This document shows, in pieces, positions 13,388 through 17,649 of a stretch of 64,000 nucleotides of DNA (within the stretch, counting starts at the first letter, position 1; the number at the start of each line of letters is the position of its first letter). Source of the stretch: Antedon mediterranea (lineage: Eukaryota; Echinodermata; Crinoidea; Comatulida; Antedonidae); NCBI RefSeq assembly GCF_964355755.1, contig NC_092673.1, forward strand, positions 31,749,001 to 31,813,000, in the 5' to 3' direction. Position numbers and translations under genes: made by a program. The notes under the pieces were generated by a model. That model saw only the letters and a list, made by a program, of their open reading frames with translations. It was not told the DNA's origin and made no database searches.

Positions 13388-14319
13388 CTATGGTCTCAGT
13401 GCCCGACTAAAAATAAAGTTGTCTTTGGCTGCGGGTTCCTGTCCGCTGGATGTTGATTGATTTTGGCCACATGTTTTCATTCCTGTGTGTTTTCTAATAG
13501 GGACATGTTTCATAGCTTCTTTCCAATCATTTGTTTCTTTCATTGCTGATAGTATCTTAATTACTTGATCTAAAGTCAGAGACTTATGCCCACCACTTCC
13601 CCACTTTAAGTAGTAATCAATTGGTAATCGTACATGAGAAACATTTAATCTTTTTGCAATACCTAAAGACAATCCTTTTTGTATTTGAGTTGCATCAACA
13701 AAAGCACCAATAACGTACGTCTTAGTGTCATCAAATGTGCGCATTATGTTTGGTGAATCTGGCGACAGATAAATAATGTTCTCTTTTGGAAATTTTTCCA
13801 GTAAAGATTGTGAACTCATTGTCACCATCATCTTATTGTATGCGTCCTTTGTTGTTGTACGCACAAATTCTTTATGCGATAGTGAACCCTCTAGGTGGTT
13901 AACAAAGTGTATGTGAAAAGACTCCTTAGCTTTCTTATTTGCATGTATTACATAACCATTTGCATACTTAGGGCGATAGCATCTCTTCGTTGCATATACT
14001 GGTCATAGCAAAAATCAAACACAACATTCTGACCAAATTTCATTCCTTGAGACAGTTTCCAATTATCAGACTCCAAAATACGTTGATTCCTTTTGAGAAA
14101 CAACGTATTTGCTAATGGTGTTTCATACTCCTTACCCTTACCAAAGGAGAATGCTTAAATAGCCTTCGCTAACCATTCACTAGGCATTCGAATGCTAATT
14201 TACAGGTAATTTTTAGAATTTAGGCATTCATGGTTAAAACCACTTAATCGGAATGCTAAGAAAAGTTTCCAAGCATTCTTTAGGAATGCTTACAAGAGTC
14301 AATAAGCATTCAGAAGCTA

Positions 14320-14640
14320 TCCCGAATGGTAGTGTGAATGCTAAGTTCATTGGTAGCATTCAGGGAGATATTTTGAATGGTAGTGTGAATGCTAAGATCA
14401 TTGGTAGCATTCAGGAAGAGATTTTGAATGGTAGTGTGAATGCCAAGATCATTGGTAGCATTCAGGGAGATATTCTGAATGGTATTGTGAATGCTAAGAA
14501 CATTGGTAGCATTCAGGGAGATATTTTGAATGGTAGTGTGAATGCTAAGAACATTGGTAGCATTCAGGGAGATATGTTGAATGGTAGTGTGAATGCTAAG
14601 ATCATTGGTAGCATTCAGGAAGAGATTTTGAATGGTAAAC
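14320..14640. repeat. 51-bp minisatellite
   Basis: About six tandem units of 51 bp (core GGTAGCATTCAGGGAGATAT, then TTTGAATGGTAGTGTGAATG, then CTAAGATCATT). Because 51 is a multiple of three, both strands stay open for more than 100 codons, producing a 17-residue repeat peptide. I regard this as a by-product of the unit length and not a gene. Confidence 0.85.
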
Positions 14641-15442
14641 AGGGAAATAATTGAATGCTCAACCAATCAGATCAATCCTCACCAACTGCCAAAAAAACAA
14701 CCACCAATTCAAATTCAAGAGACCAAATGGCTAGAAAAAGGCTGAGTTGAGTGAGTGAGGATGCCTACAGTAGACTGCAGCCTTCCTTCTTTTTACAGCT
14801 TACCTGCTGGCAAACCTGACACAGATTTTGCTGATATAAAAGGTATTGTAGCTAGTTGCTATACTTGTTCTTTTATCATTCTGTATTTGGCTACTAACTA
14901 GCTAGGCCTAATAATAATAGGAGGATCAGTATAGCCACACACAGCCTACTAAGTTGAGTTCAGCAGAGAGGGACCAGGGCTAGGCTACAGTAGATAGTGA
15001 GTGGTTTGGGATTCAGTGGTGGTGATACTATCAAAAAGTCCTATCAAAAGTCGAATCCCCTAAGTCACTCCCTGGTTATATTGTGTAGCTGGCCTAGGCT
15101 AGTTATAGTATACTCTAGAACCACATTGTATCACTTATCAAAAAGAAGGGCTAACTAAACTATAAAAGCAATTTTAAATAAAAGCGGTTTTCACTCCATC
15201 GTTTATTTTATTATAAGACAATGGGATGATGGAGGCATTTTTATGCAATGGCAGATTATTTCCTTAATTCCAATATTTGAAATGAATAAAAACAGTAACA
15301 CAACATGTATTTATTTTAAAAAGGGTAAATATTAAATAAAATCCTTTTTATTAAACCTGAATGATACTAATATAATAGTCCTTCTACAGACTAGAGAATA
15401 TAGTGCATAATTCAGTTTTATCTGCTATATACTGACTGTTCA

Positions 15443-15834
15443 TAAAGGAACATAGAAAACAAAATAAAGAGTCCAACAGGAATGCATTGGACAAATCATC
15501 TGTTGATGCCATTAGAGGTATTTAACTATAAATTTTAAACCTATTTTAACATGTTCATGTCTTATAAACATGCCTTCAATGATCAATTAAATATGAGGGA
15601 AAATTGAATCCCACCATTTCTCTTTGTTTTAATTGCTTAATCATTCTTTTTATCTTTAATTTCTTTTCACAGGGTGTCGGTTTTTTATTTCATTAACATA
15701 TTTCAATATTTTTTTTTGCAGAGTATATCAAGGTCGTGGCAGTAAAAAATGATTGGACTCCTGTTAGCCTGGTAGAATTTAACAAGAAGTTTGTGTCTAA
15801 ATGCACCAATGCACGCAGGAGTCTATATAAATAG
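15443..15834 (+). CDS. BEN-domain C-terminal segment (two exons) carried by the TA-flanked element
   Basis: Exon A (about 15447-15517) ends in a GT donor after residues NALDKSSVDAIR. Exon B starts after a polypyrimidine tract and AG at 15721 and runs 15722-15834 to a TAG stop, with residues EYIKVVAVKNDW and FVSKCTNARRSLYK. Spliced, the phases agree. The pattern 'L-D-x-x-x-V-x-A-I-x-E-Y', then 'K-x-x-x-K-C-x-x-x-R-R' matches the last two helices of BEN domains, which bind DNA or protein in chromatin and insulator proteins (family knowledge). The N-terminal half of the domain and the start codon were not located; a possible earlier exon is 14812-14859, between an AG acceptor and a GT donor. Base use does not differ from the surroundings. 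Confidence 0.6.
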
Positions 15835-16556
15835 ATAAATATTTTATATATAATTTTTATTTTCATTTATCATATCTTTATATTCTCAATTTTGTCCAAG
15901 TATTCTCACTTGCACAGATAAAGTGCTAGTGTTGCCAATAGCTCTGCTAATTGATAATTTTTTAGCTTTTTGCTTACTTTAGTTTGTATCTCCATTGAGA
16001 TCCACAGCATTGTCATTTTTTTCAGTAATTTGCCTTTTATATATAGTGTATATATATATTTCTTTGAAGATGCCTCCATAAGGAAATTCATGGTGTCAAT
16101 TGAAGTTTTATATTAAATATTTTAAAGTAGTTAATTTTGATAATTGTTCATTTGTATATGGCCTTTTTGTCATATACAGTATAAGTATTACACTCTCTTG
16201 CTGTTTATACGTTTGATAGCTTTTTGATACTTTATTTCTGTTTGGGAATGTTAAATATCCAGTATCGACGAAAATATATTAATTAAATTTGATTTTTTAA
16301 TAATTAAAGTAAAGACATCTTTTATTTTAATGTCTCTTATTGTATATTTGAAGAATTTTTTCGCTTTTCATTTTAGATTCTTCATAAAAAAAGTGAGAAA
16401 TCTGGATCACAACATTTCCCACTGTAGAATTTGAATGCTTTAGCATTTAATTCGCTCACTAGCATTCACAGTGTAACAGTGTACCAATATTTGAATGTGT
16501 AGTTTTGAATGCTAGACCACGCCCACTAAAAAAGCTCAATAACACATTCATCTACT

Positions 16557-16960
16557 AGCATTCGAATGCTAGGCTAGCATTCGAATGCTAGCCTAGCATT
16601 CCCCTACTAGCATTCGAATGCTAGGCTAAGCCTTCCAGATTTAGCATTCGAATGCTAGTATAGCATTCAACTAGTAGCATTCGAATGCTACTTTTAGCAT
16701 TCGAATGCTAGTGCTACCATTCATGCTTAGCTCATTTACATAATTCGGCTCCCTGGAAGGCTTAGCGAAGGCTTAGTGAATGCTAAGAAGCATTCGAAGG
16801 AAGGCTTAGCGAAGGCTTAGCGAAGGCTTAGTGAATGCTAAGAAGCATTCGAATGCTAAATTCAGTCATTGAATGCTTATATACCACTAGTATTCGAATG
16901 CTAAGTATTAGCCCTTCGAATGCCAATAATAGCATTCCAGGAGTAGCATTCGAATGCTTT
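16557..16960. repeat. Cluster of perfect 14-bp palindromes AGCATTCGAATGCT
   Basis: At least six perfect copies (for example 16557-16570, 16576-16589, 16609-16622) plus near copies near 16845, 16888 and 16945. A related copy lies near the other end of the element at about 14192. Spacing is irregular (about 19-35 bases). Subterminal arrays of this kind are often transposase or cellular protein binding sites; here the role is inferred. Confidence 0.8.
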
Positions 16961-17334
16961 GTGAATGGTAAGCGAAGGCATTCAGCTTTGGTAAGGGTAC
17001 TTTCTTCGGATTCTATTTTTCTTTGTTCCCGTTTTTCAAGACGCTTTTCCTTATCCTTCAGTCGCAAACACTCTCTACGATACATGAAAGTCATAAAGTT
17101 TTTCCTTTGCTTTTTAGATTTGATAGAAGCAAAATGTTCTAAATCTGCATCACTGATTTGTTGTGGGACTTGTCTGCCTGAAAGCCTCATTTCTTCTATT
17201 AACTCTCTTGCCTCTTCAAGTCCTCTATCATAAGACGTTTCTTTACTAGATTCATTTGTAATAGAACAGTAATATCTTGATTGATAGATATGTTTCTTTT
17301 TAATTGTTCTTACCAATTTCAAGAGGTGATACAT

Positions 17335-17649
17335 TTCTATCTGTGAATTTAACGCAAAAATAATTATTGAATAACCATGGTAACCAATCAATGGCAATTC
17401 CAACTTTCATTATGCACAGACAGTTTAGTCATGAAAAGGGCAACTTCTTAATAAAACAAAGCCTAGGTACACTAAGCTATCGCCCCGTAAAATTTTATGA
17501 TATAAAATTTTATCAAGTATATGCTAAAATATTGATTAGGTTTATTCAGAAACTGAAGACCGCCCTCTGTGATAAGTGATGTTTTGTAGCGTTGAACATA
17601 TTGCGGAAGTTTTAACCCATTTAAATTTGTTTCTGGAAAGAAATATAGG
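17335..17649. other. Region upstream of TRMT10C
   Basis: Contains the probable TRMT10C promoter side. An alternative in-frame ATG 23 codons upstream (17403) exists but gives a hydrophobic extension that looks less like a targeting peptide. No other gene is seen. Confidence 0.35.

Follow-up and report, generated by a model that had tools for sequence, protein, structure and literature searches.

The window analyzed here, a 64,000-nucleotide stretch of the Antedon mediterranea genome (C4:31749001-31813000 of an assembly of 354 Mb), carries on its minus strand a coding sequence related to TRMT10C (mitochondrial RNase P protein 1), identified by its match to PDB 5nfj (E 3.8e-38) and by the Pfam tRNA_m1G_MT family. 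A 2,863-bp element (14135-16997, + strand) interrupts this sequence. The element is flanked on either side by TA (14133-14134 and 16998-16999), the two copies of a 2-bp target-site duplication (TSD) recognized from flank comparison and empty sites, and has inverted ends CCCTTACCAAAG that begin at 14135 and 16997. Its left terminal inverted repeat, CCCTTACCAAAGGAGAATGC (14135-14154, + strand), pairs with the right one at 16978-16997 (CCCTTACCAAAGCTGAATGC on the minus strand), and a further inverted block matches 14162-14197 to 16944-16979 at 92%. Three paralogues serve as empty sites with one TA, and excision of the element together with one TA yields the identical sequence ATACTCCTTACTTTCTTCGG; the joined sequence with a single TA is present at all three, which fixes the borders to the base and sets the length of the duplication at 2 bp. 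The length, flanks, and ends proposed in the initial annotation are thus borne out. Deletion of the element plus one TA also restores the TRMT10C-like reading frame. The interrupted copy spans 13388-17406, with the element inside a coding exon, and has a 1-bp deletion relative to its paralogues at C4:31929007, C9:122140, and C11:14276961, all of which are uninterrupted; given the insertion in an exon and the deletion, it looks like a pseudogene in a small multi-copy family.

The left 266 bp of the element recur at about 18 genomic places and the right 278 bp at about 27, and about 10 related full copies exist elsewhere in the genome. Matching TSDs flank 7 of 12 copies (TA in three, and AA, AG, AC, and AT), a frequency with P of about 2e-6 at a chance of 1/16 per copy. 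Because AA, AG, AC, and AT occur elsewhere, the TA at the window insertion is a 2-bp TSD and not an obligatory target, and Tc1/mariner, to which TA flanks might have pointed, is ruled out by this variability. The copies fall into two families. Family A, to which the window element belongs, comprises 11 copies with a segment resembling a BEN domain; family B (L020, L058, L057, L056, L062, L067, L071, and L072) has both ends and the 5′ module in common with A, a different 3′ part, and no BEN segment. A search for longer copies with a transposase, which the initial annotation had recommended, came back empty: the candidates for autonomous copies (L009, L010, L055/L056 of 15.8 kb, and L057) are longer because other elements are nested in them, among these an LTR retroelement and fragments that resemble LINEs, and no transposase is encoded in any element copy examined. 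In L055-L056 (C1:2694938-2711100), a family B copy, a nested LTR retroelement accounts for the length of 15.8 kb. L064, considered as a longer relative with BEN context, is a left-end fragment that stops at a splice acceptor and continues into unrelated sequence; its match to the 3′ part of the element is an interspersed repeat.

Animal TRC elements have been recognized by CCC ends and a 2-bp TSD, the latter in 7 of 14 copies (SmTRC1; DeMarco et al., PMC1636069), and the Spongebob study likewise uses CCC ends and a 2-bp TSD (PMC4298943). The window element has CCC...GGG ends, a 2-bp TSD without fixed sequence, and subterminal motif arrays, and together with the empty sites and related copies these features make it a new, nonautonomous member of the animal TRC-type CACTA/EnSpm transposons. 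About a dozen to 14 TRC-type transposase loci are present in the genome. Two of them, L068 (C4:23784644) and L069 (C8:7989765), contain identical intact frames of 684 aa with Transposase_21 (1.4e-5) and DUF4218 matches, as well as the sequence IDFMHQTCLG, which fits the eumetazoan TRC motif L/V/I-D-X-L/M-H-X3-L-G (PMC1636069); both begin with a CCCAGCTAAC end, which starts with CCC, and carry AACGTT arrays. The two loci are 99.8% identical over 8.5 kb, and these transposase copies are apparently young. In a search that covered the genome incompletely, no element with CCCTTACC ends contained a transposase; the family would be mobilized by a TRC enzyme encoded elsewhere.

Both ends of the element are densely packed with the half-site GCATTC/GAATGC, which occurs 51 times in its 2.86 kb, as compared with 24 occurrences across the remaining 61 kb of the window. 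The left subterminal array (14149-14660) contains 21 of these motifs, all counted within the left 700 bp, and includes a 51-bp tandem repeat in 6.2 copies (14324-14637); the right array (16425-16982) contains 29, within the right 600 bp. Perfect 14-bp AGCATTCGAATGCT palindromes, each a head-to-head pair of half-sites, start at 16557, 16576, 16609, 16643, 16676, 16696, 16844, and 16945, in line with the six or more noted initially; shuffled sequences lead one to expect 0.00 against the 8 observed, and genome-wide AGCATTCGAATGCT occurs 132 times versus 0 for a reversed control. The half-site unit is thus shared between the ends and the layout differs, with the 51-bp tandem repeat on the left and the palindromes on the right. 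Folded as single-stranded DNA, the right array is 15 SD better than shuffles. The 51-bp repeat, equal to 17 codons, leaves frames open on opposite strands (138 aa at 14238-14654 on the plus strand, 118 aa at 14310-14666 on the minus strand), which the repeat length probably explains. BEN-less copies of family B bear the same arrays (for example, 38 half-sites with 3 perfect palindromes in L020 and at least 17 palindromes in L067). Because these sister elements carry them too, the arrays were not acquired for a family A BEN protein, and a BEN protein is unnecessary to explain them since subterminal arrays that include palindromes and are bound by TNPA are a CACTA hallmark (PMC2613891).

The BEN-like segment consists of a partial exon (15448-15517), which encodes EHRKQNKESNRNALDKSSVDAIR and ends at a phase-1 donor at 15518, an intron (15518-15721), and a last exon (15722-15834) with the stop codon, all on the plus strand. 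Both exons are open, GT stands at 15518 and AG at 15720-15721, and the spliced translation reads EHRKQNKESNRNALDKSSVDAIR-EYIKVVAVKNDWTPVSLVEFNKKFVSKCTNARRSLYK up to the stop. The segment would be confined to the C-terminal portion of the domain: the first helices are absent, and helix α5, the C-terminal helix that recognizes bases in solved BEN structures (PMC11472053), would be encoded. The segment contains no in-frame ATG. With Pfam PF10523 (BEN), the window copy gives E=0.0038-0.0057 and the family consensus 0.0068-0.011; the score of 16-18 bits covers profile positions 23-76 of 76 and misses the curated cut-off of 23.2. A profile of 13 local BEN genes puts the fragment, at marginal significance, in the top 0.6% (matched by 32 of 4,973 shuffles), and its similarity to any single BEN protein of the genome lies within or near the shuffle range. 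By sequence alone, BEN identity is therefore suggestive only. Gene structure is stronger evidence than the Pfam score: position and phase of the intron are those of the BEN genes L046, L048, and L054, and the motif-plus-donor pattern LD...V.AIR-G followed by GT, drawn up with these three genes in view, is restricted to them and family A within the 361 kb searched and turned up not once in 20 shuffled windows. The spliceable C-terminal segment described in the initial annotation thus stands as regards open exons, GT/AG borders, and BEN-type intron, but not as regards a significant Pfam match. Upstream, a 44-nt mini-exon (14799-14842, + strand), recognized by alignment and predicted splice signals, with tttttacag before it and GT after it, is conserved between the two families and may be what is left of a gene that belonged to the element itself.

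BEN segment and palindromic arrays are paired in all 11 copies of family A, so the segment is not a random insertion into one copy. Divergence within the family is 2.2-2.4% in the BEN exons, 2.0% in the intron, and 1-1.6% in the flanks. The segment has accumulated 4 synonymous changes and 13 others, where the expected synonymous share is 20%. Of the 11 copies, 6 have been broken by frameshifts, stops, or loss of the donor, and the spliced segment is open in the remaining 5. The segment is a truncated, neutrally evolving relic.

Family A is a mosaic: a B-type 5′ module running to GAACA (15448-15452) is followed by the BEN-bearing segment and then by a stretch held in common with the L073 family. 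Homology to family B stops at GAACA, and the A-specific segment begins abruptly with TAG. Downstream of the BEN stop, a genome search revealed an interspersed repeat with many genomic copies (15892-16061, + strand), which would also suit captured host DNA. Alignment identifies 16280-16499 (+ strand) as 97% shared with the L073 family on C1, whose right end is of the type found here; L073 was considered as the parent locus and rejected, being a separate element family with only this stretch in common. Mean distances are 1.6% among A copies and 5.0% among B copies, and because family A is one young lineage nested within the diversity of BEN-less B, the BEN segment was gained by A and not kept from a common ancestor. 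DNA and protein searches of the assembly, in which gaps are possible, found no parental gene outside the element copies; with copies only about 2% apart, a missing host parent is odd for the recent capture of a single-copy host gene.

An intact gene with the same intron lies at L054 (C3:23357418-23360558), where a minus-strand gene for a coiled-coil plus BEN protein (C3:23358918), when spliced at the shared site, scores 23.8 bits with Pfam BEN, above the cut-off. About 320 bp past its stop begins an array in which the motif CCAGTT/AACTGG occurs 18 times, in either orientation and mostly with a spacing of 17 bp, with repeats of the type CCAGTTGG; it extends another 320 bp and ends in ...ACCTGGG. 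The order of BEN end, inverted-motif array, and GGG end is common to L054 and the window element. On the side opposite to the array, 2.6 kb from the BEN gene, lies a CACTA transposase fragment (C3:23361653, + strand), a 305-aa open frame that matches TRC transposase with E 1.6e-15, partially and at 28% identity. With 20 BEN genes and about 14 transposase loci, about 0.004 such neighbors would be expected by chance. Judged from this arrangement, L054 may be an element that is autonomous or close to it; alternatively, its BEN gene and transposase fragment may belong to two neighboring elements, given that the transposase match is partial and that the sequence covered takes in one end of the putative element. 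At L040 (2117-3195; C4, near 13823843), a BEN gene likewise precedes an array, here of 89-bp tandem units with CCGTTA...TAACGG palindromes, which runs past the end of the locus and may be an ordinary satellite. A near-identical, intron-containing BEN gene present in multiple copies (L042-L045, on C3, C11, C4, and C5; 94-99% over the compared loci) looks recently amplified, and similar element ends are absent within 1.5 kb of it.

What the BEN-like segment signifies could be read in several ways. It might not be BEN at all, with the Pfam score and splice pattern arising by coincidence in an otherwise ordinary nonautonomous transposon, and a solved-structure search with the fragment, in which no BEN structure was matched, would accord with this, as would the sub-threshold Pfam score and the shuffles that equal the fragment with the local profile; an intron shared in position and phase with three BEN genes, and a motif-plus-donor pattern confined to such genes and family A, make coincidence very unlikely. 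The initial annotation went further in the other direction and suggested that a BEN protein encoded by this element might recognize the element's palindromes and so have a role in mobility or silencing. The spliced segment is indeed open in nearly half of the copies, the part of BEN with the recognition helix α5 is encoded (PMC11472053), and, with an ATG at 14761, splicing of the mini-exon to a weak acceptor at 15469 could keep the frame. A product limited to profile positions 23-76 and lacking its own start codon, a near-neutral ratio of changes, exon divergence that keeps pace with that of introns, the broken majority of copies, and the arrays of BEN-less family B all argue against the window element as carrier of this function, which we consider highly improbable.

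A capture of the Pack-TIR kind deserves far more weight, although we lean against it. A TRC-type element would have picked up the 3′ portion of an ordinary BEN gene of the host (a partial exon, the intron, the last exon, and the repeat-bearing 3′ flank) and multiplied it as an inert passenger, with the palindromes unrelated to it. Capture has precedent in animals, with 370 cases in 100 genomes (PMC8277862), and would account for a single young lineage within BEN-less B, for an A-specific segment that starts abruptly between GAACA and TAG and brings along an intron and a host-type interspersed repeat, and for the neutral evolution of the BEN exons. It is harder to reconcile with a parent gene that neither DNA nor protein searches recovered despite the closeness of the copies, and with the fragment's place directly ahead of the array, the position that the BEN gene occupies at L054.

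The reading that we favor, if only by a little, is that the window element is a nonautonomous TRC derivative whose BEN segment is the relic of a TNPA-like end-binding protein from an autonomous relative. We posit that the GCATTC and palindrome arrays are putative binding sites for element-encoded proteins acting in trans, as TNPA does on Spm/En, and that a BEN gene carried by such a relative left the fragment as its 3′ remnant, joined to family A by recombination. The ancestral BEN protein would have had the end-binding role; in the window copy, the fragment would be a relic without activity of its own. The stretch C3:23357758-23362231 could model the intact state: there, a BEN gene with this intron has a CACTA transposase fragment on one side and an inverted-motif array on the other. 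A TNPA-like protein is favored because these neighbors are improbable by chance and because gene and array follow the same order as in the window element; L054 fits a transposon-encoded BEN protein that would bind element ends, in trans on window-type derivatives. The original idea of a BEN protein matched to palindromes therefore gains from the 11-copy pairing and the L054 arrangement, and loses from the relic state of BEN here and the arrays of BEN-less sisters. The broader proposal, that some TRC-type CACTA elements of this animal lineage encode a BEN accessory protein equivalent to TNPA that recognizes element-specific palindrome arrays, and that host BEN proteins may then partly descend from such proteins or the reverse, is tentative yet not far-fetched.

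With animal Pack-TIRs the window element shares the plan of a multi-copy TIR element bearing an intron-containing gene fragment; unlike them, it has no parental gene that could be found, and its fragment sits at the place taken by an intact BEN gene in a related locus. Of the BEN fold of Insv, BANP, NACC1, and BEND3, its fragment represents the C-terminal portion, and, in contrast to these proteins, the element has this part of one domain only. Sites of BEN proteins are short and frequently palindromic; unlike known BEN sites, the array motif GCATTCGAATGC lacks CATG and CGCG cores. In the literature searched, where papers on BEN domains and transposases were judged by title, no report appears to pair a BEN domain with a transposon and palindromes.

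Plant CACTA elements such as Spm/En and Tgmt* resemble the window element in their asymmetric arrays, in which one short motif in both orientations forms palindromes (24 repeats forming 12 palindromes at the right border of soybean Tgmt*, PMC2613891), and in nonautonomous derivatives that retain arrays and lose genes. They differ from it in having CACTA instead of CCC ends and a 3-bp instead of a 2-bp TSD, and the end-binding protein proposed here, a BEN protein, would be unrelated to TNPA. A further likeness is to animal TRC elements (SmTRC1, EnSpm-4N1_HM/Spongebob), which share CCC termini, a 2-bp TSD in about half of the copies, spliced internal sequence, and Transposase_21-type transposases, here present in the genome; the window element departs from them in its lack of a transposase, its 51-bp and 14-bp palindromic arrays, and its BEN fragment. 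The paper that defined TRC elements described fast-evolving accessory proteins of no assignable family and called for tests of whether they act like TNPA, and the PrA and PrB proteins of SmTRC1 have no recognizable relatives (PMC1636069). With a CACTA transposase and a palindromic array as its neighbors, a BEN gene would supply a candidate accessory protein with a known DNA-binding fold, which makes the accessory-protein question directly testable; if this holds at L054, an animal CACTA accessory protein gains a known fold, and the diversity of BEN chromatin factors gains a possible source.
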